From positions 310,001 through 374,000 of the forward strand of contig NZ_CP053440.1 of assembly GCF_000769405.2 (NCBI RefSeq): DNA of 64,000 nucleotides, in the 5' to 3' direction. Below are positions 15,112 through 35,239 of the stretch, piece by piece. Under the pieces are notes generated by a model, which ran no database searches, was not told where the DNA came from, and was given only the letters and a program-made list of their open reading frames with translations. This DNA is from Rhizobium brockwellii. GTDB lineage: Bacteria; Pseudomonadota; Alphaproteobacteria; Rhizobiales; Rhizobiaceae. A program made the translations under genes and the position numbers. The first letter of the stretch is position 1. Each line of letters starts with the position of its first letter.

Positions 15112-15134
15112 CCCAAGCTCGGGAGGAGAGAGCA

Positions 15135-16109: not shown

Positions 16110-16117
16110 ACTATGCG

Positions 16118-16178
16118 GCGCGGCGCCTCACAGCGCCGCGCGTCTTTGAGACGCGCAAGGACGCTGTAACACTTTGGT
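16118..16178. repeat. Rhizobial intergenic palindromic repeat (RIME-like) between dctP and dctQ
   Basis: Two overlapping inverted repeats: GCGCGGCGC (16118-16126) with GCGCCGCGC (16133-16141), and GCGCGTCT (16138-16145) with AGACGCGC (16149-16156). The second is followed by AAGGACGCTGTAACACTTTG, a string I recognise from a mosaic repeat scattered through rhizobial genomes. The two hairpins share bases and so exclude each other in RNA. The element fills most of the 117-bp dctP-dctQ gap. Confidence 0.65.
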
Positions 16179-16226
16179 TGCTGCAGGCGCCGCGCTCCTT
16201 CATTCCGAACTGGAACAGGGCCGATC

Positions 16227-16799: not shown

Positions 16800-16803
16800 T
16801 CTG

Positions 16804-18210: not shown

Positions 18211-18220
18211 GATGGATACG

Positions 18221-19255
18221 ATGCGGACACGTCTGGCACGGCTTTACCAAAAGGGCGATCTCAGGATCGAGACCGCCGCGGTTGCGGCCCCTGGTCCCGG
18301 CGAGGTGCTTCTTAAAATGGCGGCCGCAGGGATTTGCGGCTCCGACCTGCATTATTATCAGGATGGCGGCTTCGGGCCGGTCAGGGTTCGCGAGCCGATC
18401 ATACCCGGCCACGAGGCCTCGGGGACCGTGAGCCAAACAGGCGAGGGGGTCGATCTGAAGGCCGGGACGCTGGTGGCGGTCAATCCCAGCCAACCCTGCG
18501 GGCATTGCGAATATTGTGAGAAAAACATGCCGATCCACTGCCTGGAAATGCGCTTCATGGGCAGCGCGATGCGCCTGCCGCATGAGCAGGGCATGTTCCG
18601 GGAATGGCTGGTGGCGCCGGCCAAGCAGTGCTTTGCGGTCGGAGTTGCGACAACCGCTGCAGAAGCGGCCTGCAGCGAGCCGCTCTCCGTCTGCCTGCAC
18701 GCGGCATCGCGCGCAGGCGATATCACAGGCCAACGCGTGCTGGTCACCGGCGCCGGCCCGATCGGTGCCCTAGCGGTTGCCGTCGCAGCTTATTATGGGG
18801 CTAGCGAGATCGTGGTGACCGATCTCGCGGATGCGGCGCTGGACAGGGCAAAAGCGATGGGCGCGACCCGCACGATCAATGTTTCCAAGGATGCCCCGGC
18901 GCTTGCGGCATACGAGGCGGGAAAGGGCTATTTCGATCTCGTCTTCGAATGCTCGGCCGCCGCTCCGGCCATCCGCGGCGCAATTGCCGCCATCAGACCA
19001 CGCGGAACGATCGTGCAGGTCGGCGTCACGGGAGACGTCCCGATCCCTCTCAATGCCATCGTCGGCAAGGAGCTTCAACTCCACGGAACGCAGCGCTTCC
19101 ACGAGGAATTTGCCACCGCCGTCGATCTGATCTCCAACCGCAAGATCGATGTCCGGCCGATCATCAGCCACAGCCTGTCGCTCGAAGAGGCCACCGCCGC
19201 CTTCACCCTCGCCGGTGACCGCGCGGCCGCCTGCAAGGTGCAACTGACCTTTTAA
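18221..19255 (+). CDS. Zinc-dependent medium-chain dehydrogenase, L-idonate 5-dehydrogenase-like
   Basis: 344 residues from ATG 18221, chosen for the AGGA 8 bp before it; ATG 18212 would add three residues. Catalytic zinc ligands are in AAAGICGSDLHYY near residue 37 and PGHEASG near 62. The structural zinc site is complete in CGHCEYCEKNMPIHC near 90-104. NAD(P) binding: VLVTGAGPIGALAVAVAAYYGA near 172. Family members oxidise L-idonate or polyols. It is probably the first catabolic enzyme for the TRAP substrate; nothing later in that route is in the window. Confidence 0.82.
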   Translation: MRTRLARLYQKGDLRIETAAVAAPGPGEVLLKMAAAGICGSDLHYYQDGGFGPVRVREPIIPGHEASGTVSQTGEGVDLKAGTLVAVNPSQPCGHCEYCEKNMPIHCLEMRFMGSAMRLPHEQGMFREWLVAPAKQCFAVGVATTAAEAACSEPLSVCLHAASRAGDITGQRVLVTGAGPIGALAVAVAAYYGASEIVVTDLADAALDRAKAMGATRTINVSKDAPALAAYEAGKGYFDLVFECSAAAPAIRGAIAAIRPRGTIVQVGVTGDVPIPLNAIVGKELQLHGTQRFHEEFATAVDLISNRKIDVRPIISHSLSLEEATAAFTLAGDRAAACKVQLTF

Positions 19256-19516: not shown

Positions 19517-19561
19517 ATAAATAAACGCTATAGCGGCAGAGTGGAGTTGTGTTGGCCAGCG
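19517..19561 (+). promoter_or_regulatory. 45-bp conserved promoter element, copy A (upstream of the amino-acid ABC operon)
   Basis: 38 of 45 positions match 26629-26673, including the uninterrupted core CTATAGCGGCAGA and the block AGTTGTGTT. It lies 127 bp before the binding-protein start at 19688. Because the other copy precedes hyuA, and a LysR gene lies between the two operons, this is probably the activator site plus promoter of a two-operon regulon. Confidence 0.7.
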
Positions 19562-19687: not shown

Positions 19688-20881
19688 ATGAAACTTACCG
19701 TAAGCCGCAGAGCACTTTTCATTTCTACAGCAGTCTTTTCACTGGCCGTGACCGTCTCCGGCCTGCCGGCGATCGCGCTGGCAGCGGACGGGACGATCAA
19801 GCTCGGACTTGTTGCGCCGATGAGCGGCCCGAATGCGCGCTACGGCGCATTTTCGATGCATGGAGCCGAACTCGCCGTCAAAGACATCAATGATGCCGGC
19901 GGCATCGATGGGATGAAAATTGAACTGCTCAACGCCGACAGCCAGGGCACGCCGGTCGAAGGCGTCTCGGCCGCCCGTCGTCTGATTGACCAGGATGGCG
20001 TCGACTTCATCATCGGCGATGTTTCCAGCTCGGTGACGCTCGCCATCCAGCCCGTCGCGGAAGATGCCGAAGTTCTCCTGCTGAATGCGGCATCATCCAA
20101 TCCGAAGATCACCTACCAGGCCGGCGTCGGCGGCTTCAAGTGGACCTATCGCAACTATCCGACAGATGAAAACCGGGCGCTGATCGTCGCCAAATATGCT
20201 GCAGAGCAGCGCGGCTTCACCAAGTTCGCCGTGCTCTCGGTCGACAGCGACTATGGCCGCTCGGCGATCACCTTCACGAAGAAGTACCTGCCTGACTTCA
20301 AGGGAGAGATCCTCAGCGAAGACTACTACAAGGAAGGCGAAGTCGACTTCCGCAGCGTTCTCGCCAAGATCCGCGACAATGGCGCCCAGGCGATCATCAT
20401 GTACGGCCTCGCCGATACGACGCCCATCATCGCCCGCCAGATGATCGAACTCGGAATAGCCGGCAAGGTCACGCTAATCGGCAATGGCGAGTTCAACACG
20501 GAAAAGACCATCAAATCAGCGCCGTCGGCGCTCGAAGGCGCCGTCGAAGCCGCCGCATGGCTTCCGCAGTTCGACTCGCCCGAAAGCAAGGCGTTCGTCG
20601 AGAAGTTCACGGCCACCTACAACGAAGCCCCGAATAACCACGCCTACGTTCACTGGGATACCGTCAATCTCCTCGCCGCGGCGATCAAGCAGGCCGGCAG
20701 CGCTGATAAGGTGAAGGTTCGCGACGCACTTTCGAAGATCAAATATAAGAGCCCGGTTGGCGAGGTTACCTTCGACGACCACAACCAGGCCCGCCTGCCG
20801 ATGATCCTGCTGCAGATCGAGAACGGCAAGCCGAGCATCAAGGGTGCATATACGGCGGACATTCAATATCCTGCCAACTAA
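19688..20881 (+). CDS. Branched-chain-type ABC transporter solute-binding protein (Peripla_BP_6)
   Basis: 397 residues from ATG 19688. Signal peptide to about residue 33 (...PAIALAAD). The mature protein reads TIKLGLVAPMSGPNARYGAFSMHGAELAV, the LivJ/LivK-like first strand, followed by DINDAGGIDG, RRLIDQDGVDFIIGDVSSSVT and SVDSDYGRSAITF. It delivers its ligand to the membrane proteins encoded next. Although the family is named for branched-chain amino acids, many members bind amides, ureas or aromatic acids; the linked hyuAB genes make a lactam or hydantoin-related ligand conceivable. Confidence 0.9.
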   Translation: MKLTVSRRALFISTAVFSLAVTVSGLPAIALAADGTIKLGLVAPMSGPNARYGAFSMHGAELAVKDINDAGGIDGMKIELLNADSQGTPVEGVSAARRLIDQDGVDFIIGDVSSSVTLAIQPVAEDAEVLLLNAASSNPKITYQAGVGGFKWTYRNYPTDENRALIVAKYAAEQRGFTKFAVLSVDSDYGRSAITFTKKYLPDFKGEILSEDYYKEGEVDFRSVLAKIRDNGAQAIIMYGLADTTPIIARQMIELGIAGKVTLIGNGEFNTEKTIKSAPSALEGAVEAAAWLPQFDSPESKAFVEKFTATYNEAPNNHAYVHWDTVNLLAAAIKQAGSADKVKVRDALSKIKYKSPVGEVTFDDHNQARLPMILLQIENGKPSIKGAYTADIQYPAN

Positions 20882-20903
20882 TCTGCCGGGAGGAGGTACG
20901 CCC

Positions 20904-21776
20904 ATGCTCTCGACCATACTCGAGCAAACTGTGAATGGAATCGTCACTGGTTCCGTTTACGCAATCGTCGCCGTCGGCATGACCATGATTTTCGGCGTGC
21001 TGAGAGCCATCAATTTTGCTCACGGCGAGTATTACATGCTCGGCACGTTCGGGGCCTGGTTTTCGATAGACTATCTCGGCCTGTCCTATGAAGCGTCGAT
21101 TATTGTGGGCGTTCTTGCGACAATCGCCGTTGCCTATGTGGTCGGGCAACTCGTCATGCGCCGGATGGTCGGCGCGCCCGCGGAGTCGGGCGTGCTCGCC
21201 ACCCTTGGCATCGCGCTGATCCTGCAGAACACCATCATTCTCGTCTTCGGCGGAGGCTACAAGTTCTTCGCCGGAGGCTATATCGAACCGGTTTCCATCC
21301 TGGGCTTCAGTCTGGCCCAGCAGCGCATCCTCATTCTCGTCGTCTGCCTGTTGGTGTTCATCGGCCTTGAGCTGATGGTCAGCTACACCCGCCTCGGAAT
21401 GGCGATGCGCGCCGTTTCCCAGAACGTCGAGTGCTGCAGCGTCGTCGGCATCGATGTACCGCAGGTGGTGCTTCGAACCTTCATGCTGGGGGCGGCCCTC
21501 GCAGCACTTTCAGGTGTTCTGACGGCGCCGGTCAATGTCAGCGTTTATGGCGGCATGGGCGAACTGATCACGTTCAAGACGCTGCCGATCATTATCATGG
21601 GCGGTTTGGGCAATGTGCGCGGCACTTTCGTCGCGGCGATGATCCTTGGCGTGGCCGAGAGCCTGGTCGCCACCTATGTCGGTCTGCAATTCCGCGACAC
21701 CGTCGGCTTCGCCACGCTGATCCTGATGCTGATGTGGCGACCGCATGGCCTCTTTTCGACGCAGGCGCGCTTCTAG
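20904..21776 (+). CDS. Branched-chain-type ABC transporter permease (LivH-like)
   Basis: 290 residues from ATG 20904, after GGGAGGAGG; it starts 22 bp after the binding-protein gene. About eight membrane segments. LivH marks: NGIVTGSVYAIVAVGMTMIFGVLRAINFAHGEYYMLG at residues 11-47 and GGLGNVRGTFVAAMILGVAESL near 235, which includes the ATPase-coupling loop. It pairs with the LivM-like protein encoded downstream. Confidence 0.92.
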   Translation: MLSTILEQTVNGIVTGSVYAIVAVGMTMIFGVLRAINFAHGEYYMLGTFGAWFSIDYLGLSYEASIIVGVLATIAVAYVVGQLVMRRMVGAPAESGVLATLGIALILQNTIILVFGGGYKFFAGGYIEPVSILGFSLAQQRILILVVCLLVFIGLELMVSYTRLGMAMRAVSQNVECCSVVGIDVPQVVLRTFMLGAALAALSGVLTAPVNVSVYGGMGELITFKTLPIIIMGGLGNVRGTFVAAMILGVAESLVATYVGLQFRDTVGFATLILMLMWRPHGLFSTQARF

Positions 21777-21819
21777 CAGCTGCGCCCGCCGACCTTTCTC
21801 GAACGACCGAGGACTCGAC

Positions 21820-22806
21820 ATGTCTCTGACGGAAACCGCTCAACAGGCACGCAGGCGCGACCTTCGCATACCGCTCGCCGCGGTCCTGATCGTCCTGGCA
21901 CTCGCCGCGCCGTTCATCGGCAGCCGTTACATCACCCATTCCCTGATCATCGCCCTGATTTTCATGCTTCCGGCACACGGGCTCAATCTGCTTGTTGGGT
22001 ATACCGGTCTTCTGTCATTGGCCCAGGCCGCGTTCTTCGGCATCGGTGCCTATACGGCGGGTCTTCTCGCCGTCACCTACGGAACGCCCTTCTACGTCAA
22101 TCTCCTCGCTGCAGGCGCCGTCTCAGGAGCCCTTGCTCTTCCGCTCGGCATTCCCGCCTTGCGTCTGCGCTCGACGTCCTTTGTCATGTGTACGCTCGGT
22201 TTCGTGATCATTGGCCAGGCCATCGCCAAGAACTGGATCTCGCTCACCCGCGGCGACATGGGTCTATCGAGCATTCCAAAACCATACTTCGAGCTAGGCC
22301 CGCTTTCGTTCACGGTGTCCGGTACGACAAACTTCTACTATCTTGCCCTGATCATCGGGACCCTCGCCACCTTCGCCGTCTGGGCAATCGTCCGCTCGCC
22401 CGCCGGGCGCAACATGGTGGCGATCCGCGAGAACGAAACGCTTGCCGAATCTCTCGGCGTTCCCACCTGGCACTACAAGCTGATCGTCTTCATGATCAGC
22501 GCGGTGTTTGCCGGAGTCGGCGGCTGCCTCTACGCCTATTACCTGACGGTCGTTAGCCCGCTGACCTTCCAGATGTACTATTCGACCACGATGCTGATCA
22601 TCGTGCTCGGAGGCGGGGCGGGGATGATTTCCGGCACCGTCTTCGGAAGCCTGCTCTTTGTCGGGCTGACGGAGGCGCTGCGCATAACACCCGAACTGCG
22701 GATGATCGCCTATGGCGTCTGCCTTCTCGTCCTCGTCTTCTGGTTCAAGAAGGGCTGCGCGCCGCTGATCAATCGCTTCTGGAATGCGATCGGAGGTGTG
22801 AAATGA
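21820..22806 (+). CDS. Branched-chain-type ABC transporter permease (LivM-like)
   Basis: 328 residues from ATG 21820 (MSLTETAQQARRRDLRIP). A short cytoplasmic lead precedes about nine membrane segments. HGLNLLVGYTGLLSLAQAAFFGIGAYTAGLL near 52 is the LivM signature, and ENETLAESLGVPTWHYKL near 206 with GGGAGMISGTVFGSLLFVG near 265 is the coupling region. The stop overlaps the start of the first ATPase gene by four bases (ATGA). Confidence 0.92.
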   Translation: MSLTETAQQARRRDLRIPLAAVLIVLALAAPFIGSRYITHSLIIALIFMLPAHGLNLLVGYTGLLSLAQAAFFGIGAYTAGLLAVTYGTPFYVNLLAAGAVSGALALPLGIPALRLRSTSFVMCTLGFVIIGQAIAKNWISLTRGDMGLSSIPKPYFELGPLSFTVSGTTNFYYLALIIGTLATFAVWAIVRSPAGRNMVAIRENETLAESLGVPTWHYKLIVFMISAVFAGVGGCLYAYYLTVVSPLTFQMYYSTTMLIIVLGGGAGMISGTVFGSLLFVGLTEALRITPELRMIAYGVCLLVLVFWFKKGCAPLINRFWNAIGGVK

Positions 22807-23576
22807 CCAGTCATCTTCCGCTTCTCGAGATCAAGAACCTCAGCAAGTCCTATGGCGCGGTGAAGGCTGTCAACGATGTCAGCATTCACATCGACCGAGG
22901 TGAGATCGCGGGCCTGATCGGACCGAACGGCTCCGGCAAGTCGACCTTCTTCGATTGCAGCACCGGCCTTGCGAAGCCAGACACCGGCACGGTCGTCCTT
23001 GACGGACAGGACATCACCGGTTGGTCCTTGAACCGCATCGCTAGGGAAGGCCGCATGCTGCGGTCTTTCCAGAAGACCGTGACTTTCAAGTCGCTCGATG
23101 TCGAGGAGAACCTGGTCATCGCCGGTCAGATGTTCACCTTCCCGTCCATTGCATCGACCTTCGGCCTCGGAAAGATGTCCCGCCAGCGCATCGATGGTCT
23201 CAGGGAAAGAGCCCGCGACCTGATCAAGATGGCGGGTCTCTGGGATGTGCGCCACCAGCCGGCGGGCAATCTGTCGGGCGGGCAGCAGAAGCTCATCCAG
23301 TTCGCATCCATGCTCATGCCCGAACCAAAACTCATCCTGCTGGATGAACCGATGGCCGGCATCAACCCGAAGATCATCGAACGCGTCGTCGACACCATCC
23401 TCTATGCCAACAAGTCGCTTGGCGTGAGCTTTCTGGTGATCGAGCATAATATCGATGTTGTCACCAGCATCTGCCAGCGCGTCATCGTGCTCGACCAGGG
23501 AGCCAAGCTCGTCGAAGGCTTACCGGGCGACATCATTCAGGATCAGCGCGTCAGGGAGGCCTATCTTGGCGGGTAA
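22803..23576 (+). CDS. Branched-chain-type ABC transporter ATPase 1 (LivG-like)
   Basis: 257 residues. Walker A LIGPNGSGKSTFF at about 39-51, signature LSGGQQKLIQFASML near 156, Walker B LILLDEPMAGINP near 178, H-loop VIEHNIDVV near 215. The C-terminal REAYLGG tail is the usual LivG end. It overlaps the following ATPase gene by 11 bp because that gene uses a TTG start. Confidence 0.93.
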   Translation: MTSHLPLLEIKNLSKSYGAVKAVNDVSIHIDRGEIAGLIGPNGSGKSTFFDCSTGLAKPDTGTVVLDGQDITGWSLNRIAREGRMLRSFQKTVTFKSLDVEENLVIAGQMFTFPSIASTFGLGKMSRQRIDGLRERARDLIKMAGLWDVRHQPAGNLSGGQQKLIQFASMLMPEPKLILLDEPMAGINPKIIERVVDTILYANKSLGVSFLVIEHNIDVVTSICQRVIVLDQGAKLVEGLPGDIIQDQRVREAYLGG

Positions 23577-24309
23577 TTCGAACCTTTCAATCCGCGACCT
23601 GCGTGCAGGTTACGGCAATCTGGACATCCTCAACGGCGTCGATCTCGACGTGCCCGCGGGACAGTTCGTGGCGCTCATGGGGCCGAACGGGGCGGGTAAA
23701 TCCACGCTTCTCAAGACGCTCTACGGCATGACGACCATCAAGCAGGGCAACATCGACTGGCGCGGCAAGAACATTGCGGGCTGCAAGTCGCGAGCCATTC
23801 TGGGCGAGGGGATTTCCTTCGTGCCTCAGGGGCGCTGCAACTTTCCCGTCATGAGCGTCGACGAAAATCTTCAGATGGCGGCCTATACCCTCCGCGACGC
23901 CAAGGTGAAGGCCGACCGCGATTACGTCTACGACCTCTTTCCGATCCTGAAGAAACGCCGTGCGACGCTCGCAGGCAATATGTCCGGCGGCGAGCAGCAG
24001 TTGCTCGAGGTGGCGATGGCGGTGCTGCAGCGGCCGAAAGTGCTGCTGGTCGACGAGCCGTCCGTGGGGCTGTCGCCGGCTGCGATCGGTATCGTCTTTG
24101 ACGAGCTTCTTCGACTTCACGCAGATGGCATGACGATCCTGCTGGTTGAACAGAACACCAAGAAAGCCATGGAAGTGGCGGAGCGCGCGGTCATTCTGAG
24201 ACTTGGCAAAGTGATCTGGGACGGCCTGCCGAAGGACATCACCCATGACGAACTCGGCGAACTTTTCCTGACCGGGAAGATGCGCGGCGAAACCGAAGCC
24301 GTCCACTGA
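23566..24309 (+). CDS. Branched-chain-type ABC transporter ATPase 2 (LivF-like), TTG start
   Basis: 247 residues. The start is TTG at 23566, inside the end of the preceding gene, supported by AGGGAGG at 23553-23559; no ATG or GTG fits before the first conserved strand NLSIRDLRAGYG. Walker A MGPNGAGKSTLLK, signature SGGEQQLLEVAMAVL, Walker B VLLVDEPSVGLSP and H-loop VEQNTKKAM are all present. A 16-base palindrome (24308-24323) overlaps the stop codon and precedes the aminotransferase. Confidence 0.92.
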   Translation: MAGNSNLSIRDLRAGYGNLDILNGVDLDVPAGQFVALMGPNGAGKSTLLKTLYGMTTIKQGNIDWRGKNIAGCKSRAILGEGISFVPQGRCNFPVMSVDENLQMAAYTLRDAKVKADRDYVYDLFPILKKRRATLAGNMSGGEQQLLEVAMAVLQRPKVLLVDEPSVGLSPAAIGIVFDELLRLHADGMTILLVEQNTKKAMEVAERAVILRLGKVIWDGLPKDITHDELGELFLTGKMRGETEAVH

Positions 24310-24351
24310 GGCGATCTCGCCTCTCAAGGAATCACAATCGAGGAAATCTCA

Positions 24352-25560
24352 ATGAGCACTTTCGTGCCTGCATCGCGTGTGTCCAGAATCAAGGTTTCGC
24401 CAAGCACGGCTGCGGCAGCCCGTGCTCGCGAACTGAAGGCGGCGGGTCGCGACATCGTCGATCTGACCGTCGGCGAGCCGGACTTCGATACGCCTGACAA
24501 TATCAAGGCCGCGGCGCATGCGGCCATCGACAGGGGCGAAACGAAATATACCGCCGTCAACGGCACGCCGGCGCTGCGCAAGGCAATCATCGGTGATATC
24601 AAGCGCCGGCTCGGCCTCAGCTACGCGGACAACGAAATCTGCGTTGGCGGTGGCGCCAAGCAGATTCTGTTTCTCGCACTGATGGCGAGCGTGGAAAACG
24701 ATGCAGAGGTGATCATTCCCGCACCATACTGGGTTTCCTATCCCGATATGGTCATTGCCAACGAAGGCAAGCCGGTCATCATCGAATGCCCGCAGGAAGC
24801 AGGCTTCAAGCTCACGCCGGAGGCTTTGGAAAAGGCGATCACGCCGAGGACCTTGTGGCTGATCCTCAACGCGCCGTCCAATCCGACGGGCGCGGCATAC
24901 GACAGGAGCGAACTCGAAGCCCTCGGCAAGGTGCTGCTGCGCCATCCCCACGTCTTCGTGCTCTCCGACGATATCTACGACCAGGTCTGGTTCAAGGACG
25001 AGCCGATGACGACGCTGGTTGCCGCCGTCCCGGAACTGAAGGAGCGTGTTCTGCTCACCAACGGCGTCTCCAAATCCTACGCCATGACTGGATGGCGTAT
25101 CGGCTACGCGGCGGGCCCGGCCGCCCTGATTGCGGCCATCAACAAGCTGCAGTCGCAGATGTCGTCCTGCCCATCGTCGGTCAGTCAGGCAGCCGCTGCC
25201 TATGCGCTGTCTTCTGACCAGTCATTCGTTTCGGAAAGCGTGAAGGTCTACAAGGAGCGCCGCGATTATGCGTGCTCACGGCTCAATGCCGTGCCCGGCC
25301 TCTCCTGTCTCGTACCTGACGGCGCTTTCTATCTGTTTCCGAACTGCGCCGGTGTCATCGGCAAGAAGACCCCCGAAGGCAAGACAATCGAGACAGACCT
25401 CGATTTCGTGCTCTATCTGCTCGATGGCGTCGGGGTCGCGGCGCTGCAGGGTGCCGCCTACGGGATATCGCCGCATTTTCGCCTCTCGATTGCGACGTCG
25501 ATGGAGGTGATCACGCAAGCATGCGATCGCATCGAACGGGCCGTTGCCGACCTGTATTGA
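24352..25560 (+). CDS. Class I PLP aminotransferase (aspartate aminotransferase family)
   Basis: 402 residues; ATG 24352 follows GAGGAAATCTCA. Fold-type I landmarks: GRDIVDLTVGEPDFDTPDN near 33, NAPSNPTGAAYDRSELEAL near 175, SDDIYDQVWF near 204 and the PLP-lysine segment NGVSKSYAMTGWRIGY near 237. Arg of the alpha-carboxylate site is in ISPHFRLSIATS near 373. It would convert an imported or derived amino acid to its 2-oxo acid. It is the last gene of the importer operon, implying that it acts on the transported compound or on a product of the hyuAB operon. Confidence 0.9.
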   Translation: MSTFVPASRVSRIKVSPSTAAAARARELKAAGRDIVDLTVGEPDFDTPDNIKAAAHAAIDRGETKYTAVNGTPALRKAIIGDIKRRLGLSYADNEICVGGGAKQILFLALMASVENDAEVIIPAPYWVSYPDMVIANEGKPVIIECPQEAGFKLTPEALEKAITPRTLWLILNAPSNPTGAAYDRSELEALGKVLLRHPHVFVLSDDIYDQVWFKDEPMTTLVAAVPELKERVLLTNGVSKSYAMTGWRIGYAAGPAALIAAINKLQSQMSSCPSSVSQAAAAYALSSDQSFVSESVKVYKERRDYACSRLNAVPGLSCLVPDGAFYLFPNCAGVIGKKTPEGKTIETDLDFVLYLLDGVGVAALQGAAYGISPHFRLSIATSMEVITQACDRIERAVADLY

Positions 25561-25638
25561 CTGCAAAGAGGTCGGCGGGACTTGCGCCCCACCGGCCGCA
25601 GGCTTTACGTTTTTTCGTGAAACAAGAAGCCGGTGGCC

Positions 25639-26577
25639 ATGAGCGTCGATTTCCGAAAACTGAAGAGCTTCGTCAAGATCGTCGATACGGGCAGCGTATC
25701 GCGAGCTGCGAGCCTTCTGCGGACGGCCCAGCCGGCGCTGTCGCAGCAGATTGCCGCTCTCGAGGCGCACTTCAAACACAAGCTTCTCATCCGTAGCAAT
25801 GTCGGCATTACGCCGACCGAGGCGGGGCTGATCCTTTATCGGCACGCCCAATTGATGTTGAAGCAGATCGAGCAGGCGCAGGTCGACATCGATCAGTCCG
25901 CCAAATCGGTGGCGGGCCGCGTCTCGATCGGGCTTGCGACCTATTCCTCGTCAAGCGCCTTGTCGCTGCCGATCCTCAAGGAGATGAAGGCGAGGCATCC
26001 CCATATCGTTGTCCACATCAATGACAGTTTCGGCCAGATCCTCAGCGAACTGATCATGACGGGCAAGATGGATATGGCGCTGATCTATGCCGCTGCCCCG
26101 ATCAAGGGCGTCACGCTGCAGCCATTGTTTCGCGAGGAAATGTTCCTGGTCTCGCCGCCGGGCATCGAACTCCCCGGGGATAGCAGCGCGCCGCTTCCCC
26201 TTTCTGCCCTCCAGGACATCCCGCTGCTTCTTCCCAGCAAAGCACATCTGCTCAGGCGGTTGATCGACGATGCCCTGGCGAGAGCCAGAGCCACCCCTGA
26301 TGTCGTCTCGGAAATCGAATCCGTTCCGGCTCTCAGCGCGGCGGTTCTCGACGGGCTTGGATCGACCATTCTCCCGGCTTCCGTGGTCACGGAGACGGCG
26401 ATTTTTTCGGGCGCGCAGGTAAGGGCGCTGACGAAGCCGGTGATCGACGCGACCGTGTCGCTCTGCGTCGCCGATCATCTGCCCCTGTCGGAACCGGCCA
26501 TCGCTGCGCGGTCGGTTCTCCTCGATGTCGTGGGCAAGCTCATGAGCAGTCATCATCCCGGAATCAGGCCGGCCTAG
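25639..26577 (+). CDS. LysR-family transcriptional regulator (Nac-like)
   Basis: 312 residues from ATG 25639 (GTG at 25633 is an alternative two codons earlier). The N-terminal helix-turn-helix is VDTGSVSRAASLLRTAQPALSQQIAALEAHF (about 17-47); the remainder is the two-lobed effector domain, with GRVSIGLATYSSSSALSLPILKEM near 94. The N-terminal DFRKLKSFVKIVDTGS most recalls nitrogen-assimilation-control (Nac) type LysR proteins. It lies in the same direction between two operons whose promoters share a 45-bp element, so it is the natural candidate regulator of both. Effector unknown. Confidence 0.88.
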   Translation: MSVDFRKLKSFVKIVDTGSVSRAASLLRTAQPALSQQIAALEAHFKHKLLIRSNVGITPTEAGLILYRHAQLMLKQIEQAQVDIDQSAKSVAGRVSIGLATYSSSSALSLPILKEMKARHPHIVVHINDSFGQILSELIMTGKMDMALIYAAAPIKGVTLQPLFREEMFLVSPPGIELPGDSSAPLPLSALQDIPLLLPSKAHLLRRLIDDALARARATPDVVSEIESVPALSAAVLDGLGSTILPASVVTETAIFSGAQVRALTKPVIDATVSLCVADHLPLSEPAIAARSVLLDVVGKLMSSHHPGIRPA

Positions 26578-26628
26578 CCGGCGGCCGATCCTCGCAACGG
26601 CAGTCTGACGGCGCATTCGCGCTCCGCC

Positions 26629-26673
26629 ATAAGCAAACCCTATAGCGGCAGACTGTAGTTGTGTTAGCCAACG
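26629..26673 (+). promoter_or_regulatory. 45-bp conserved promoter element, copy B (upstream of hyuA)
   Basis: Matches copy A (19517-19561) at 38 of 45 positions and lies 97 bp before hyuA (start 26771). The conservation stops abruptly on both sides, though a CCCTAACCT-like string also recurs a little downstream of each copy. The size, two blocks and promoter position fit a LysR binding region overlapping a promoter. Confidence 0.7.
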
Positions 26674-26770
26674 CGCCGGGCATTCCCCTAACCTCCAAGC
26701 AGACATCGGGTCCGGGCATCGGATCCGCATAGCGGCGCCTGCCGCGCCGAACAGTCGCTTCGAGGACAAC

Positions 26771-28834
26771 ATGGCAAAACTGGCTTTCGACACGGGCGGT
26801 ACCTTTACCGACTTCGCGCTCCTGGACGACAAGGGCGACCTTCACCTTCACAAGGTCCTGAGCACGCCGAAGAACCCTGCCGAAGCAGTCGTGCAGGGTG
26901 TGTCCGAGTTGCTGGAAAAATTCGCCGGCACCATCGCCATCGAGAACCTGCAGGTGCTGGGCGCCACCACCGTCGTCACCAATGCGGTTCTCGAGCGCAA
27001 GGGCGTCGAAACCGGGTTCGTCACCACCGACGGCTTTCAGGACATGCTGCGTATCCGCAACGAAGGACGCTACGACCTCTACGACCTGAACATCAAATAT
27101 CCCGACCCGCTGGTCACCCGTGCAAACAGCTTCGGCGCCAAGGAGCGGATCGCGGCCGACGGTTCTGTCATGACCGAACTCGAGGAAGAGACGGTTCGCG
27201 AAATCGCCGGCCGCCTGAAGGAGAAGGGCATCCGTTCCGTCGCCGTCTGCCTTCTCCATGCCTACAAATATCCCCAGCACGAACAGCGCGTCGCTGCGCT
27301 GCTGCGCGAGGAAGACCCAGATATCTTCGTCTCGCTCTCCTCCGAAGTCTGCCCTGAGATGCGTGAGTTCGACCGCGCGTCGACGACTGTTGTCAATGCC
27401 TATACCAGGCCGCAGATGGCTGGGCACGTCGCACATCTCCAGCGTGAGTTCGCTGCGAAGGGCATCGATCGCCAGGTCCTCTGGATGACGTCCTCAGGCG
27501 GGCTGGTGCCGAGCCGGCGTGCCGCAGAACTGCCGGTACGCCTGATCGAGTCGGGTCCGGCGGCCGGCGCTGTCGCCGCTGCCGAGTTCGGCCGCACGGC
27601 TGGTGAGGCGAGCGTCTTGTCTTTCGACATGGGCGGCACGACCGCGAAGCTTTGCCTGATCCCCGACGGTGAGCCGAACGTCGGCACCGATCTTGAAGTC
27701 GCCCATTATCAGCGCTTCCGCAAGGGATCCGGTTTCCCGCTGAAGATCCAGTCGATCCAGATGATCGAGATCGGCGCGGGCGGCGGTTCGATCGCGGCCA
27801 AAAACTCTCTCGGTCTGCTCGACGTCGGCCCGCACTCCGCAGGCGCGATGCCCGGACCGGCGGCCTACCAGCGCGGCGGCACTCAGCCGACCGTCACGGA
27901 TGCTGACATCCTGCTCGGATATATGGGCACCGAATCCTTCGTCGGCGGCTCTTTCAAAGTTTCTAAGGAAGCCGCCCACGAGGCGATGGCCAAACTTGCC
28001 GCCTCACTCGAGGTTTCGGTCGAGCGTTGCGCATGGGGCATCCATGACCTCGTCAACGAATCCATGAGCAAGGCGGCCGCCATGCATGCGACCGATCTCG
28101 GCGTCGATCCCCGTTCGCTGCCGATGGTCGCGTTCGGCGGCGCCGGTCCGGTCCACGCCTATGGCATCGCCCGCAAGCTCGGCATTTCCCGCATCATCTG
28201 CCCGACCGGTGCAGGCGTGAGCTCGGCGATCGGCCTGTTGATCGCTCCCGTGGCGGTCGATCTGTCCGCAAGCCATCCGATGGCACTCGACGCCTGGAAT
28301 ATGGACGCCATGAACCGTCTGCTGGACGAGCTTTCGGCCCAGGGCGCCGAAGTCGTGTCGGCGGCGGGCGTGCCGAAGGATACGATCAGCAACCGCTACA
28401 CCGTCGACATGCGCCATGTCGGCCAGGGCCATGAGATCACCGTGGTTCTGCCTGACCGGAGCCTGCCGAAGGAGGAATTCCTCAGTGAGCTCCGCGGCAA
28501 CTTCTTCAAGCTGTACCGCGAACTGTTCGGTCGTACCGTTGCCGCGCCGCTGGAGGTCATCACCTGGCGCCTGCGCGCCGGCGGTGAAAAGGATCAGGTC
28601 ACGCGGCCGCACGAGACCGTCGTTGCCGACGCGAAGAAGGGCAGCCGAAAGGTTTATTTCCAGGAGATCGGCGGCTTTGCCGAGACTGTGGTCTACGACC
28701 ACTACAAGCTTCCCGTCGGTGAAGAGGTCAGGGGTCCAGCAATCGTCGAGCAGCGTGAATCGACTGCGGTCGTCGGGCCAAGCGGCGTCTTCCACGTGGA
28801 TGCCCATGGCAACCTCGTGATCAACCTTCACTAA
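26771..28834 (+). CDS. hyuA: Hydantoinase/oxoprolinase A subunit (HyuA)
   Basis: 687 residues, the usual size. Two actin-like ATPase phosphate motifs are clear: AFDTGGTFTDFAL at 5-17 and SFDMGGTTAKLCLI near 285. GAGGGSIA follows near 336 and GGAGPVHAYGIARKLG near 457. The N-terminal domain is Hydant_A_N, then hydantoinase A, then the C-terminal domain of N-methylhydantoinase/acetophenone-carboxylase type. Family members use ATP to open cyclic amides (hydantoin, 5-oxoproline) or to activate a carbonyl. It pairs with HyuB, 11 bp downstream. The actual substrate cannot be read from sequence. Confidence 0.9.
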   Translation: MAKLAFDTGGTFTDFALLDDKGDLHLHKVLSTPKNPAEAVVQGVSELLEKFAGTIAIENLQVLGATTVVTNAVLERKGVETGFVTTDGFQDMLRIRNEGRYDLYDLNIKYPDPLVTRANSFGAKERIAADGSVMTELEEETVREIAGRLKEKGIRSVAVCLLHAYKYPQHEQRVAALLREEDPDIFVSLSSEVCPEMREFDRASTTVVNAYTRPQMAGHVAHLQREFAAKGIDRQVLWMTSSGGLVPSRRAAELPVRLIESGPAAGAVAAAEFGRTAGEASVLSFDMGGTTAKLCLIPDGEPNVGTDLEVAHYQRFRKGSGFPLKIQSIQMIEIGAGGGSIAAKNSLGLLDVGPHSAGAMPGPAAYQRGGTQPTVTDADILLGYMGTESFVGGSFKVSKEAAHEAMAKLAASLEVSVERCAWGIHDLVNESMSKAAAMHATDLGVDPRSLPMVAFGGAGPVHAYGIARKLGISRIICPTGAGVSSAIGLLIAPVAVDLSASHPMALDAWNMDAMNRLLDELSAQGAEVVSAAGVPKDTISNRYTVDMRHVGQGHEITVVLPDRSLPKEEFLSELRGNFFKLYRELFGRTVAAPLEVITWRLRAGGEKDQVTRPHETVVADAKKGSRKVYFQEIGGFAETVVYDHYKLPVGEEVRGPAIVEQRESTAVVGPSGVFHVDAHGNLVINLH

Positions 28835-28845
28835 GGGGTACTCAG

Positions 28846-30522
28846 ATGTCGAAACCCGCCACCGATTTCAACGACCCGATCAACCTTCAGGTGATGTGGA
28901 ACCGCCTGATCTTCATCGCAGACCAGGCTGACAACGTCCTCGGCAAGACGGCATTCTCGCCGATCGTCCGCGAGAACCACGATTACGTGACCGTCCTCTT
29001 GGACAGCAAGGGACGGGCGCTGGCGCAATGCACCTGGTCGATCCCGGTCTTCATTACCTCGCTCCCGGCCGCGGCCCAGAACTATTTCCTGCCGAAGTTC
29101 CCCGCAGACAAGCTCGAAGAGGGCGATGTGCTGGCGACCAACGATCCGGAGATCGGCACCGGCCATCTTCCCGATGTCACGATGATCACGCCGATCTTCA
29201 AGAACGGCAAGGTCGTCGCCTATGCCGGCTCCATCGCCCATCTTCCCGATATCGGCGGCGCCCCTCTGCATTCCGAAGCGAGCGATATCTACGAAGAAGG
29301 GATCCGCTTCCCGATCATCAAGCTGCTGAAGGCCGGCGTTCCGAACCAGGACGTCTTCGACATCATCGAAGCGTCGGTCCGTCTTCCGACCGAAGTGCGC
29401 GGCGACCTCGAATCGATGATCGCTGCCAACAATGTCATGGGCCGCGAACTCGTCAAATTCCTGGACGAATACGGTCTCGACGACGTCGAGGGCCTGGCGA
29501 CCGCCATCCATTCCCGCTCCGAAGCGCAGACCCGCAAGGCGATCCGCGAATGGCCGAACGGCAGTTACGCGGCCGAGGTTCTGCTCGACGGTTACGATGT
29601 CGATGTGACGCTGAAGGCTTCGGTCATCATCAAGGACGACTCGATCCACGTCGACTACACCGGTACCTCCGACCAGGTTCTGCACTCGATCAACTGCCGG
29701 ACGAACTATCGCTACGCCCATTCCGTCTATGCTCTGAAGTGCCTGCTCGACCCCGAGACGCCGAATAATGAGGGCTGCATCGTCCCGATCACCGACGAGG
29801 CGCCGCTCGGCTGCATCCTCAACCCGCAACACTGGACGGCGGGCAATTCGCGGAACCTGATCGGGCACGTCATTCCCTCGCTGATCTTCAAGGCGCTCGA
29901 AGGGGTGGTGCCCGAGAAGGTCATGGGCGACAGCGGCGGCGCGCCGATCTGGGCCGCCAATTGCGTCGGTCAGCGCAACGACGGCACGCAGTATGGCTCG
30001 GTCCAGAATTTCCATGGCGGGCAGGGCGCGCGCGCGGAGCTCGACGGTCTGGACACGCTGAGTTTCCCCTCGAACTGCAAGGTAACGGCCATCGAGATGT
30101 TCGAGGTTGCCGTTCCCGTGCTGACGGAGCGGAAGGAACTGATCGCCGACTCCGGCGGAGCAGGCAAGCATCGCGGCGGTCTCGGCCAGCGTGTCGTGCT
30201 GCGCAACCTCGGCAAGAACCCGATGAACATCTACCTCGCCTCCGAGCGTGTTCGCCATCCCTGCTTCGGTGTCGTCGAAGGCCAGAGCGGATCGGCAGGA
30301 AAGGTCATGAAGGACGGCAAGCCCCATTTCCCGAAGGGCAAGGTGGTCCTGAAGACAGGCCAGCGGCTCGAGGTGGAGACGCCAGGCGGCGGCGGTTGGG
30401 GACCTGCGAGCGATCGTTCGTCTGCACTGATCGAGCAGGATCTTTCCGAAAACCTGATCACCGCGAAGGCTGCGAAGGAAATTTACGGCTATTCTGGCCC
30501 GATCGCTGCTGCGGCCGAATAA
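28846..30522 (+). CDS. hyuB: Hydantoinase/oxoprolinase B subunit (HyuB)
   Basis: 558 residues from ATG 28846 with AAGGGG upstream. HyuB-family segments: NRLIFIADQADNVLGKTAFSPIVRENHDY near residue 15, LATNDPEIGTGHLPDVTMITPIF near 95, DSGGAGKHRGGLGQRVVLR near 435 and the C-terminal TPGGGGWG motif. It forms the second catalytic subunit of the ATP-dependent cyclic amidase. No third small subunit, as found in acetophenone carboxylase or acetone carboxylase, is next to it, which favours a hydantoinase/oxoprolinase-like reaction. Confidence 0.9.
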   Translation: MSKPATDFNDPINLQVMWNRLIFIADQADNVLGKTAFSPIVRENHDYVTVLLDSKGRALAQCTWSIPVFITSLPAAAQNYFLPKFPADKLEEGDVLATNDPEIGTGHLPDVTMITPIFKNGKVVAYAGSIAHLPDIGGAPLHSEASDIYEEGIRFPIIKLLKAGVPNQDVFDIIEASVRLPTEVRGDLESMIAANNVMGRELVKFLDEYGLDDVEGLATAIHSRSEAQTRKAIREWPNGSYAAEVLLDGYDVDVTLKASVIIKDDSIHVDYTGTSDQVLHSINCRTNYRYAHSVYALKCLLDPETPNNEGCIVPITDEAPLGCILNPQHWTAGNSRNLIGHVIPSLIFKALEGVVPEKVMGDSGGAPIWAANCVGQRNDGTQYGSVQNFHGGQGARAELDGLDTLSFPSNCKVTAIEMFEVAVPVLTERKELIADSGGAGKHRGGLGQRVVLRNLGKNPMNIYLASERVRHPCFGVVEGQSGSAGKVMKDGKPHFPKGKVVLKTGQRLEVETPGGGGWGPASDRSSALIEQDLSENLITAKAAKEIYGYSGPIAAAAE

Positions 30523-30531
30523 GGGAAAACC

Positions 30532-31335
30532 ATGGGACTTCTCGAAGGAAAAATTGCTCTGGTGACGGGAGCCGGCTCCGGCATCGGTCGCGAAACCGCC
30601 CTGCTGCTGGCAAAGGACGGCGCCACCGTCGTGCTGACCGGGCGGCGGATCGAACCGCTGCGCGAGGTGGCGGCCTTGATCGAAGAGGCTAATGGCAAGG
30701 CCGTCGTGCGTGCGCTCGATATCGAGACGCGTGAAGAGATCTTTGCGGCCGTGACGTGGATCAAGGATAGCGTCGGACCCGTCGATATCCTGGTGAACAA
30801 TGCCGGCAGCGCAAGCAAGGTGCTGAACCCGCGTTTTCTGAGCGAGGTGGAGTGGATCTCCACCATCAACGTCAATCTGACGGCGGTCTTCAACCTGACC
30901 CAGGCGGTCCTTCCGGACATGATCGCGCGCGGCGAGGGAACGATCATCACGGTCTCGTCGCTCGCGGTGATCAACCCCAACCTGCTCGGTGGAGCGGCCT
31001 ATGGTGCGGCCAAGGCCGGCGTGAAGAACTTCATGAGCTTCCTGCACAACACCTATCGTAATCAGGGGATCCGGGCGACGACGATCCTGCCCGGCGAGAC
31101 CAATACGCCGATCATGGACAATCGCGCGCGGCCTCCTCTGCAGGAGGAACGTGCCGTCATGATGGATCCTCATGACGTCGCCCGTGCGATCGTCCTCTGC
31201 GCCAGCCTCAACAAGAGCGCCGTGATCCCCGAGCTTCACATCTGCCCGACATTCATGCGGGACACGTCGGCCGACATCGAAATTGCGCGTTGGGTCGGTG
31301 CGCCGGCCGATACGCCGGATATGCCGAAAAAATAG
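30532..31335 (+). CDS. Short-chain dehydrogenase/reductase (SDR)
   Basis: 267 residues, classical SDR. Cofactor motif VTGAGSGIGRETALLL at 10-25, an R-containing GRRIEP after the second strand (NADP possible), NNAG near 89, catalytic Ser in ITVSSLAVI near 142 and YGAAKAG (Tyr-xxx-Lys) near 157. It begins 9 bp after hyuB in the same operon. It is probably an alcohol dehydrogenase or oxo-acid reductase acting on the ring-opened product, but direction and substrate are unknown. Confidence 0.88.
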   Translation: MGLLEGKIALVTGAGSGIGRETALLLAKDGATVVLTGRRIEPLREVAALIEEANGKAVVRALDIETREEIFAAVTWIKDSVGPVDILVNNAGSASKVLNPRFLSEVEWISTINVNLTAVFNLTQAVLPDMIARGEGTIITVSSLAVINPNLLGGAAYGAAKAGVKNFMSFLHNTYRNQGIRATTILPGETNTPIMDNRARPPLQEERAVMMDPHDVARAIVLCASLNKSAVIPELHICPTFMRDTSADIEIARWVGAPADTPDMPKK

Positions 31336-31351
31336 AATTGGGAGGATATTG

Positions 31352-32053
31352 ATGAACGGAGCCAAATTGCGCGCCCGACTGTTGGCCGGCGAGGCGATCA
31401 CCATGTATACGCCGCACCACTCCTCGTCGGGGCTGGCAGCCCGACTGGTGGAGCTCGGCGCCGATTCCGTCTTCGTCGACTGCGAACACGGAACCTGGAG
31501 CTTCGACGATGTGCGCATGACTGCACAGATTGTCCGTTCTGTCGGCGGAGCGGCGATCGTCCGGCCACATTCGCACGAACGCCCGATCATCATCAGATAT
31601 CTGAATGCGGGAGCCGACGGCATCATGGTCCCGATGGTGGACACGGCCGAACAGGCGCGCGCCGTCGTCGATGCCGTCCGCTACGCTCTTCCGTCCGACT
31701 TCGACAAGCGCCTGGTGGTGGCGATGATCGAGACGGTGGATGCCATAGACAATCTCGACGATATGTTGAAGGTCGATGGCATCGACGTCTTCTTCATCGG
31801 ACCTGGCGATCTCTCGCAGAATATGGGCTATCCGCCGGCCCCGCCCTTCGGCGAGCCGCGTCCTGAAGCGGTCATGGCGAAGGTCGCGGTCGCAGTCGAC
31901 AAGATCCGCGCAGCAGGCAAGGTTGCAGGCACGCTGGCCACCGCCGATGAACTGCCTCATTGGCTTCAGAACGGTGTTCAGTTCTTCTATATCCACAGCG
32001 ATCCCTTCCTGCGCCGCGGGATTGCGGGCATCAGGCAGACGCTGGCGCGGTAG
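31352..32053 (+). CDS. HpcH/HpaI-family 2-oxo-acid aldolase
   Basis: 233 residues, slightly short for the family (about 250), from ATG 31352 with GGGAGGATATTG before it. TIM-barrel landmarks: DSVFVDCEHGTWSFDD near 37, AIVRPHSHERPIII near 67, GADGIMVPMVDTAEQA near 85, metal ligand Glu in VVAMIETVDA near 126, and FFIGPGDLS near 149 (second metal ligand Asp). Members cleave 4-hydroxy-2-oxo acids to pyruvate plus an aldehyde. As the last gene of the hyu operon, it probably does the final carbon-carbon cleavage. Confidence 0.87.
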   Translation: MNGAKLRARLLAGEAITMYTPHHSSSGLAARLVELGADSVFVDCEHGTWSFDDVRMTAQIVRSVGGAAIVRPHSHERPIIIRYLNAGADGIMVPMVDTAEQARAVVDAVRYALPSDFDKRLVVAMIETVDAIDNLDDMLKVDGIDVFFIGPGDLSQNMGYPPAPPFGEPRPEAVMAKVAVAVDKIRAAGKVAGTLATADELPHWLQNGVQFFYIHSDPFLRRGIAGIRQTLAR

Positions 32054-32136: not shown

Positions 32137-32601
32137 TCAGCGCCTGCCTCGCGTGCGCGTCGCCAGAACATTGCGGATCGAGAAGCTGGAATGAATCCTG
32201 AGGACACCGGGCAAGGCCGACAGGATCTCCTTGTGGATCCGCTCGAACTCGCCGGCATTGGCGACCTCGACGCGCAGCAGATAGTCCGAACCGCCGGTCA
32301 TCAGAAAACACTCCCGGATCTCGGGATGCCGGCGGACCGCCGCCTCGAGGCGGTCGAGATAGTCCTCCGTTTGTCGTTCGAGGGTGATGTTGATGATCAC
32401 GGCGATCATTTCATCCGCATTGCCGGTGTCGACCAGCACCGTATAGCCGCGGATAACGCCTGACTTTTCCATGATCTTGATGCGCCTGAGGCAGGCTGAT
32501 GGTGAGAGACCGATCTCGGCGGCGAGCTTGGCATTGCTCATGCGGGCATCGAGACGCAGCAGTCTCAGAATGTTGCGATCAATCGCGTCGAGGGCAGCCA
32601 T
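32137..32601 (-). CDS. Lrp/AsnC-family regulator, divergent from the alanine racemase gene
   Basis: 154 residues. N-terminal helix-turn-helix: LDAIDRNILRLLRLDARMSNAKLAAEIGLSPSACLRRIKIME. The RAM ligand-binding domain follows (GYTVLVDTGNADEMIAVIINI..., GGSDYLLRVEVANAGEFERI). It is divergent from dadX across a 126-bp AT-rich gap. Lrp-type regulators commonly activate dadAX in response to alanine, and this gene is the obvious local candidate. Confidence 0.9.
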   Translation of the reverse strand: MAALDAIDRNILRLLRLDARMSNAKLAAEIGLSPSACLRRIKIMEKSGVIRGYTVLVDTGNADEMIAVIINITLERQTEDYLDRLEAAVRRHPEIRECFLMTGGSDYLLRVEVANAGEFERIHKEILSALPGVLRIHSSFSIRNVLATRTRGRR

Positions 32602-32727
32602 GGCGGATCATTCCAAATTTTGATTGATTATGCGAATAATAGTCAAATCATGCAATAATGAACTGCTAAATAACCGGCAATTTCGCTCATTCTTTCATAA
32701 ACTCCCTGAGATCGAAAAGGGGTGGAC
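32602..32727. promoter_or_regulatory. AT-rich divergent promoter region, Lrp-type gene / dadX
   Basis: A strikingly AT-rich 126 bp (for example TTTTGATTGATTATGCGAAT and AATAATGAACTGCTAAATAA) between two divergent genes in otherwise GC-rich DNA. The repeated AATAAT/ATTAT-like steps at roughly helical spacing fit cooperative Lrp binding; no single operator can be fixed by eye. Confidence 0.5.
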
Positions 32728-33861: not shown

Positions 33862-33890
33862 GAGCCGGCGGCTCCATCATTGGGAACATT

Positions 33891-35141: not shown

Positions 35142-35170
35142 AACCGCCCGGGGCAACACAAAGAAGAGGG

Positions 35171-35239
35171 ATGAACATGATTGCGCAAATCCATTATCAC
35201 TTGTGTACATCGTCTTTCGAGGTCACGAATGTCGGTTAA
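35171..35239 (+). CDS. Possible 22-residue leader peptide before the AraC gene
   Basis: ATG 35171 follows AGAAGAGGG and opens a 22-codon frame (MNMIAQIHYHLCTSSFEVTN...) that ends at 35239, 8 bp past the AraC start at 35229. Overlap with the regulator start suggests translational coupling. It could also be chance; no homologue is known to me. Confidence 0.25.
   Translation: MNMIAQIHYHLCTSSFEVTNVG

Follow-up and report, generated by a model that had tools for sequence, protein, structure and literature searches.

The analysed stretch of DNA (hereafter the window) comprises 64,000 nucleotides of Rhizobium brockwellii (assembly GCF_000769405.2, contig NZ_CP053440.1, positions 310,001 to 374,000). 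At window positions 19688-32053 it carries a pair of operons with eleven co-directional genes on the plus strand, all of them with open reading frames (ORFs), for an importer, an aminotransferase, a LysR regulator, the two HyuAB subunits, a short-chain dehydrogenase/reductase (SDR) and a pyruvate aldolase. The genes, their order and coordinates and a promoter element shared by both transcripts had been proposed in an initial annotation, and all were confirmed. They are listed below, where 3841 stands for the syntenic region on plasmid pRL12 of R. johnstonii 3841.

19528..19561, plus strand: promoter/operator-like element, copy 1, upstream of the gene for the binding protein (sequence match)
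19688..20881, plus strand: substrate-binding protein of a LIV-type (HAAT) ABC importer, 397 aa (PF13458)
20904..21776, plus strand: LivH-type permease (PF02653; length matches the 3841 gene)
21820..22806, plus strand: LivM-type permease (PF02653; length matches the 3841 gene)
22803..23576, plus strand: LivG-type ATPase (PF00005; 3841 gene)
23566..24309, plus strand: LivF-type ATPase (PF00005; length matches the 3841 gene)
24352..25560, plus strand: aspartate-type class I aminotransferase (NCBIfam PRK06107, closest solved structures)
25639..26577, plus strand: LysR regulator that scores as NAC (NCBIfam NAC, 3841 synteny, relatives)
26640..26673, plus strand: promoter/operator-like element, copy 2, upstream of hyuA (sequence match)
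26771..28834, plus strand: HyuA, ATP-dependent hydantoinase/oxoprolinase subunit A (PF05378/PF01968/PF19278, closest solved structures)
28846..30522, plus strand: HyuB, hydantoinase/oxoprolinase subunit B (PF02538)
30532..31335, plus strand: SDR, proposed ketone reductase (PF00106, Asn-Ser-Tyr-Lys motifs, NADPH-type Gly-Arg-Arg)
31352..32053, plus strand: HpcH/HpaI class II pyruvate aldolase (PF03328, conserved His/Arg/Glu/Asp)

The start at 19688 matches that of the 397-residue binding protein WP_011649170.1 encoded in the 3841 region. We refer to the set of LIV-type importer, aminotransferase, NAC-like LysR, HyuAB, SDR and HpcH/HpaI aldolase as the H-type unit.

A scan with HyuA returned 65 loci (numbered L001 onwards), of which 60 have a HyuA of at least 60% identity and 56 of these also have enough flanking sequence. 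HyuB, the SDR, the HpcH aldolase, the LivH permease and the NAC-like LysR are each present at 56/56 loci, the binding protein at 55 (in Pseudomonas cerasi it falls below the detection threshold) and the aminotransferase at 53, the exceptions being two Bosea and one metagenomic genome. All seven tested genes occur together at 52 of the 56 HyuA loci, from Alpha- to Gammaproteobacteria, so the co-occurrence in other genomes on which the initial annotation had staked its proposal is indeed found. The nine other loci have too little flank (L015, L049, L058, L062), are truncated (L059) or encode a distant HyuA (31-39%) with the module absent (L060, L061, L064, L065). The aminotransferase gene changes place and can precede the binding protein gene, follow the aldolase gene or lie on the far side of the LysR gene, so that the linkage goes beyond the mere inheritance of a single ancestral block. 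At least 80% of the H-type unit was found in one place in 39 plasmid records. Gene content and co-occurrence are direct observations, and that the operon pair is a conserved catabolic unit is practically certain; as far as the literature searched shows, it combines known enzyme families into a unit that has not been described.

The sequence CTATAGCGGCAGAnTGnAGTTGTGTTnGCCAnCG occurs with 0 mismatches at both 19528-19561 and 26640-26673. Searching for CTATAGCGGCAGAnTGnAGTTGTGTTnGCCAnCG with up to 3 mismatches gave no third copy in the window (shuffle expectation 0.00), and at the same tolerance its 31-base form was found only at these two sites in the 7.1 Mb genome (control 0). The pairing is observed directly in relatives as well: of the 64 loci scanned, 42 carry the element ahead of both genes with no more than 5 mismatches, or 41 if L066 is discounted as a copy of L002; in the shuffled control, one per locus, the best match always had at least 10 mismatches. 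The remaining 22 loci belong mainly to Beta- and Gammaproteobacteria and Bradyrhizobium, plus L036, L042 and L071. At 21 of them hyuA begins 30-139 bases past livF and the element is absent there, so hyuA probably has no separate promoter; those of the same 21 that were scanned at the binding protein gave no match within 5 mismatches. L071 shows 8 and 5 mismatches. The NAC-like LysR would control both transcripts via this shared element. The window protein scores 315.8 bits against the NCBIfam NAC model (NF008410, cut-off 309), and it is, like the LysR of many related clusters, automatically annotated as 'nitrogen assimilation transcriptional regulator NAC'. Judging by genomic context, it is probably a pathway-specific regulator and not one of global nitrogen control.

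Among the enzymes, the aminotransferase scores 756 bits against the NCBIfam aspartate transaminase PRK06107 (cut-off 617), and its closest solved structures are 'Aspartate aminotransferase B' (6f35) and 'A' (6f77). HyuAB scores above cut-off for PF05378, PF01968, PF19278 and PF02538 and thus shares the two subunits and the full domain set of the HyuAB/OplAH and CapAB systems. HyuA is closest to the N-methylhydantoinase 7hk5 and the 5-oxoprolinase 6yra among solved structures and, taking models and structures together, to caprolactamase and N-methylhydantoinase. The best NCBIfam models are CapA and CapB, but HyuA (528.9/1000 bits) and HyuB (220.4/1000 bits) stay well under these equivalogs (NF050156/NF050157), and, in contrast to the known systems, an SDR and a pyruvate aldolase stand alongside at all 56 loci. 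Caprolactam, N-methylpyrrolidone and hydantoin were therefore rejected as substrates, the conserved set also being devoid of matching downstream genes; indole-acetate type lactams were rejected since the set contains no oxygenase or aromatic genes. HyuAB was likewise rejected as a carboxylase because its closest solved relatives are hydrolases and carboxylase models score lower.

The NAC score and the affinity of HyuA to caprolactamase and N-methylhydantoinase would suit a general use of lactams or hydantoins as nitrogen sources, controlled by a NAC-type regulator, in which the aldolase would follow aspartate transamination as an oxaloacetate decarboxylase, an activity known for class II pyruvate aldolases according to a passage in PMC5065237. 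We consider this very improbable, since the scores lie so far under the caprolactamase cut-offs, an oxaloacetate decarboxylase would hardly be needed, and both the SDR and the idonate genes described below would be left unexplained.

The aldolase reaches 92.8 bits for PF03328 (cut-off 25) and, when aligned with its solved relatives 2vws, 7et8 and 4b5s, retains their His, Arg, Glu and Asp, residues with established roles in HpcH/HpaI aldolases. Against the 4-hydroxy-2-oxoheptanedioate, rhamnonate and glucarate aldolase equivalogs it scores at most 106.5 bits (cut-offs 369-441), which places it by its sequence in a separate subfamily within HpcH/HpaI. In the SDR, the signature of the NADPH type, an Arg that follows the second strand, is found as GRR in 62/62 aligned members of the H-type and as AR in 24/24 of the P-type introduced below; pntAB transhydrogenase genes adjoin four loci (L030, L044, L073, L096). 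Both features make a reductive step plausible. The binding protein carries a Thr, within an ADTTP motif kept in 60/60 aligned sequences including the window's, at the position of the Glu that binds the ammonium group of the ligand in LIV-type proteins (3ipc, 4gnr, 3td9), as would be expected for a ligand without free ammonium. The small residues AASSNP, presumably near the carboxylate of the expected ligand, are also found in 60/60. The Thr thus speaks against a ligand of the ordinary branched-chain amino acid kind, though it is no proof.

A search with the aminotransferase revealed a second kind of cluster, which we call P-type, in Paracoccus, Burkholderia pyrrocinia and a peanut Bradyrhizobium. 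It combines the same aminotransferase family with AccBC, PxpABC, another SDR and an RraA/CHA-type pyruvate aldolase. The aminotransferases of the window, Paracoccus, Bradyrhizobium and Burkholderia are pairwise 56-69% alike, those of the three P-type genera having 57-67% identity to the window's. In the latter two genera a NAC-labelled regulator adjoins the cluster (44-50% to that of the window), and the NAC-like regulators of the window, Bradyrhizobium and Burkholderia share 44-67% pairwise. Across 17 P-type loci, the aminotransferase has 56-67% identity to that of the window at six and 46-50% at eleven; the set with the more distant enzyme includes the window's own genome, and even at 46-50% the step is assigned to the same enzyme family. 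The SDRs are 60-69% alike within the P-type and 29-33% between the types. Two motifs exist in HMG/CHA aldolases according to the literature; with D-X20-R-D or G-X20-R-D-X2-E/D as the expected pattern, the 18 loci inspected show the D-form (10), the G-form (6) or an E replacing the D (2). PxpABC, the 5-oxoprolinase, belongs to protein families different from HyuAB and is accompanied by biotin carboxylase and carrier genes, yet occupies the position of the lactamase; that 5-oxoprolinase subunits stand here speaks for a five-membered ring like that of 5-oxoproline. A further variant in Pantoea sp. SOD02 (L070, 8157-15970) encodes HyuAB (41-42%), an H-type SDR (60%), an RraA-family protein, an MFS transporter and a different class I/II aminotransferase (34%). 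The positions of lactamase, SDR, aldolase and importer are thus each filled by different proteins of the same general class, which supports the order of the chemistry without depending on any single annotation.

Both types coexist in several genomes. The window's genome holds a P-type cluster on contig C5 at about 208-219 kb, strain 3841 has one on pRL10, and Agrobacterium larrymoorei carries the H-type on pTi and the P-type on a second plasmid. Starts of a P-type cluster lie beside the H-type in three Variovorax (L046, L048, L062: RraA, second aminotransferase, NAC, AccC) and in an alphaproteobacterial metagenome (L042: NAC, P-type SDR, AccC), in each case as far as the fetched stretch extends. 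The P-type SDR was found in 178 plasmid records at E 1e-70 or better.

In order to find further functions linked to the unit, all ORFs of at least 120 codons outside the core genes were clustered for 60 H-type loci (L049, L058-L061 and L064-L066 left out). The top non-core family is idnO, gluconate 5-dehydrogenase-like, at 13 loci with 11 lineage labels (assigned by us, each a genus or a single metagenome), accompanied by idnD, L-idonate 5-dehydrogenase-like (11 loci, 8 labels), the gluconokinase gntK (10 loci, 9 labels) and two groups of 2-hydroxyacid dehydrogenase (2HADH; 6 and 5 loci). The rest of the top eight families are opposite-strand shadows of these four, and the next real families, including P-type RraA and AccC, reach only 3-4 loci. 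At least one of the four idonate genes was detected at 20/63 H-type loci (L066 counted) and 8/17 P-type loci, and three or four at 9/63 and 6/17. The P-type loci include two Paracoccus and two R. leguminosarum-type copies, as well as L088, picked in the knowledge that both cluster and idonate genes were present. A random 22 kb stretch would hold an idnD-like gene with an estimated chance of about 0.2%, given that such genes occur in 73/199 genomes of a family-level survey and assuming genomes of about 5 Mb and independent placing.

The arrangement of the block differs from genome to genome. In A. larrymoorei, idnO-gntK-2HADH-idnD begins 10 bases past the H-type aldolase and the block also follows the P-type operon, the 2HADH protein being identical in both (945/948 bases); in Shinella, 2HADH-idnD-idnO-gntK begins 14 bases past the CHA aldolase. 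There and in genome G128 the P-type cluster and the entire block form one run. Polaromonas has 2HADH-gntK-idnO-idnD after NAC, Variovorax J22R193 a reversed block upstream and Microvirga idnO-2HADH-idnD-pntAB. In the window's genome, an idnD-2HADH / idnO-gntK block lies on contig C5 at 164,988-168,376, about 40 kb from the P-type cluster. Like the parallel clusters with their different enzymes for the same steps, this association is observed directly; the activities of the block are predicted from sequence models. The gluconokinase passes the cut-off of its named model, and the idnO tested passes that of a subfamily and fails that of the gluconate 5-dehydrogenase equivalog (345/408). For the three 2HADH tested, the matching models are those of glyoxylate/hydroxypyruvate reductase (GhrB-like), with scores that stay under the cut-off. 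For idnD the best model is NF007375, but both the window protein (337.5 bits) and that of L068 (370.5 bits) stay below its cut-off of 469, so its substrate is a predicted one.

Which compound would enter such a pathway can be deduced backwards from the aldolase. According to a passage in PMC5065237, cleavage of 4-hydroxy-4-R-2-oxoglutarates by CHA/HMG aldolase yields two 2-oxo acids, and the active site of this enzyme is large for its substrate. An aldolase releasing pyruvate and a 2-oxo acid here would accordingly act on a 4-hydroxy-4-R-2-oxoglutarate; before transamination this would be a 4-hydroxy-4-R-glutamate, whose lactam, a 4-hydroxy-4-R-5-oxoproline, fits HyuAB as well as PxpABC. The idonate-block neighbours suggest 2-keto-L-gulonate as the product released beside pyruvate, in which case R would be a tetrahydroxybutyl chain. 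We take ascorbalamic acid to be a plant metabolite with this carbon skeleton; it was reportedly characterized in the 1970s as a glutamic acid with a gamma substituent, and its presumed ketone at C3 would provide a task for the SDR. With the formula C9H13NO8, ascorbalamic acid is the putative name given to a mass in potato root extract in the relevant part of PMC9229034, and the same formula is attached to it in an excerpt of PMC3976912. Addition of H2O and 2H to C9H13NO8 and transamination give C9H14O10, which divides atom for atom into C3H4O3 and C6H10O7, the formulas of pyruvic and 2-ketogulonic acids. Unbiased clustering of neighbours and comparison of parallel clusters can thus narrow a pathway intermediate to one formula.

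Based on these considerations, we propose, with a probability of roughly 55%, that the operon pair degrades a plant gamma-hydroxy-gamma-substituted glutamate as its lactam, most likely ascorbalamic acid or its lactam. The LIV-type ABC importer would take up ascorbalamic acid or its lactam, HyuAB would open the five-membered cyclic amide with ATP, and the SDR would reduce the ketone at ascorbate C3 with NADPH before or after ring opening. The aspartate-type aminotransferase would then yield the 4-hydroxy-4-R-2-oxoglutarate, which the HpcH/HpaI aldolase would split by retro-aldol cleavage to pyruvate and 2-keto-L-gulonate. The conversion of 2-keto-L-gulonate to 6-phosphogluconate would finally fall to 2HADH, L-idonate 5-dehydrogenase, gluconate 5-dehydrogenase and gluconokinase, whose genes adjoin the unit in a number of relatives and lie on another replicon here, in line with the chain over L-idonate, 5-keto-D-gluconate and gluconate outlined in a section of PMC5306355. 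Ring opening, transamination and pyruvate aldol cleavage can be assumed with good confidence, and 2-keto-L-gulonate is a likely second aldolase product; for ascorbalamic acid itself as the substrate the odds are about even. Just short of even we place the wider proposal of a first catabolic pathway for this ascorbate-alanine carbon-carbon conjugate or its lactam, with H and P versions that would both pass 2-keto-L-gulonate into the idonate/gluconate route, share an aminotransferase family and NAC-like regulators and differ in their SDRs, which are dissimilar, and in their ring-opening and aldol enzymes, which are non-homologous. The scheme of the initial annotation therefore stands in its sequence of import, ATP-dependent cyclic-amide opening, transamination, an SDR step and cleavage of a 4-hydroxy-2-oxo acid. 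Its cleavage products, pyruvate plus an aldehyde or glyoxylate, are probably wrong in detail since the idonate-block neighbours indicate a 2-keto sugar acid, though most single loci are without the block nearby, and the SDR, to which it gave the adjustment of a hydroxyl group, more likely reduces a ketone with NADPH.

The same types of enzyme, including PxpABC in place of HyuAB, would also serve a pathway from 4-hydroxy-5-oxoproline or 4-hydroxy-4-methyl-5-oxoproline to pyruvate and glyoxylate or to two pyruvates, with the idonate genes as an unrelated neighbour. Two pyruvates are the native products of CHA/HMG aldolase from HMG in a passage of PMC5065237, the B. pyrrocinia cluster holds a glycerate/glyoxylate reductase-like gene and a PEP carboxylase, and the block is not near most loci. 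We regard this alternative as unlikely, because it explains neither the SDR nor the recurrent 2HADH-idnD-idnO-gntK in H and P operons; glyoxylate as the sole aldol product was set aside for leaving the block unexplained and is retained only within this alternative. Somewhat less likely still is another sugar-acid-linked glutamate lactam (a stereoisomer, Maillard-type or opine-like), degraded to idonate or 5-ketogluconate, with the H and P types serving two isomers. The occurrence of both types in single genomes (the window's own and A. larrymoorei, as well as the starts in three Variovorax and L042) suggests two related substrates, but N-linked conjugates would require no pyruvate aldolase, and no other plant compound of this skeleton that is abundant is known to us.

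Several points weigh against degradation of ascorbalamic acid or its lactam. We infer every reaction, the substrate and the role of the regulator from sequence, and the structure of ascorbalamic acid and its formation of a gamma-lactam are assumptions of ours. HyuAB could open another ring, and the P-type aminotransferases at 46-50% identity (11/17 loci) may be another enzyme. Most P-type clusters inspected encode a polar-amino-acid importer, which fits an open amino acid better than a lactam, and a Glu replaces the expected Asp in the RraA motif of two P-type loci (L073, L090) and Pantoea. No aminotransferase was found at the loci of Bosea (L033, L034), L042 and Terrarubrum. Both SDR types are rare, the H-type occurring in 2/199 genomes (family-level survey, E 1e-60; too few for statistics) and the P-type in 6/398 (E 1e-75). 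In the examined stretch, all four idonate genes are missing from 43/63 H-type and 9/17 P-type loci, and near the window unit there is only an idnD of a different branch (52% to the operon type), the full block lying on another contig. Idonate itself is a plant product, so that the association could stem in part from a common habitat, and idonate use could be a separate root-exudate function that travels with the island. The oxaloacetate decarboxylation known for class II pyruvate aldolases counts here as well.

The proposed pathway resembles several known systems in part. Two class II pyruvate aldolases comparable to that of the window are HMG/CHA aldolase, which takes part in gallate/protocatechuate degradation, and HpcH/HpaI aldolase from the breakdown of homoprotocatechuate, but the set conserved here is without aromatic pathway genes, and the R proposed is tetrahydroxybutyl. 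With E. coli idn and fungal gluD-gluE the block shares 2-ketoaldonate reductase, L-idonate 5-dehydrogenase, gluconate 5-dehydrogenase and gluconokinase types, whereas here the idonate route is joined to a module for an amino-acid lactam. Mammalian hydroxyproline catabolism proceeds via 4-hydroxyglutamate through an aspartate aminotransferase and a pyruvate aldolase acting on a 4-hydroxy-2-oxo acid, with glyoxylate as product; unlike the route proposed here, it has neither lactam opening nor an SDR and uses another aldolase family. No description of the pathway was found in the literature searched, whose coverage leaves out most subscription journals. Judging by their titles, papers mentioning ascorbalamic acid concern metabolomics, food, animal diets, herbal and medical topics and none bacterial catabolism; one, by its title and the start of its abstract, deals with secreted products of Fusobacterium nucleatum. 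The expression passages of PMC3333776 and PMC11103875 do not name the unit, its old locus-tag ranges being guessed from map position.

If the proposal holds, a gene set on many rhizobial plasmids would acquire a specific substrate in place of current database labels, which give family names or, probably misleadingly, nitrogen-control and oxoproline genes. Plant ascorbate chemistry would then be tied to the nutrition of root bacteria, and rhizobia and other root bacteria would have a common means to regain carbon and nitrogen from a vitamin C derivative.

Directly upstream of the operon pair, window positions 14350-19255 encode a GntR regulator, a TRAP transporter (sialic-acid type according to the 3841 annotation), which may import idonate or a keto sugar acid, and an L-idonate 5-dehydrogenase homologue, possibly an associated function:

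18212..19255, plus strand: L-idonate 5-dehydrogenase homologue beside the TRAP transporter

Among the loci compared, idnD occupies this position only in L001-L003 and L066. Downstream, an alanine racemase, a D-amino acid dehydrogenase and an AraC regulator (32137-36251) resemble a dad alanine-catabolism unit, and the minus-strand ORF at 32137-32601 corresponds to an Lrp/AsnC gene in the syntenic 3841 region. The racemase and dehydrogenase (32722-35141) were rejected as pathway members since, among 65 HyuA loci, L001, L002 and L004 alone showed the racemase and the 3841 pair follows an Lrp-type gene.

Further stretches contain parts of the gene set. On a lentil Rhizobium plasmid (L067, 9109-10317) the aminotransferase (98% protein identity) occurs by itself, with TIR/caspase-like genes on one side and a nif/fix region on the other. 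Plasmid pAMI1 of Paracoccus aminophilus (L075, 8970-19991) brings together two amidases, a CHA aldolase, an importer for polar amino acids and two aminotransferases, and may represent a relative of the scheme in which an amide is opened. In Variovorax sp. RA8 (L076, 7075-13191), HyuAB, LysR and the aminotransferase are adjoined by a tripartite-tricarboxylate binding protein and amidases; the annotation of this stretch shows no SDR. Finally, four plasmid records of Ketogulonicigenium, a genus used for making 2-keto-L-gulonate, have DNA in common with the P-type region in the genome of the window.

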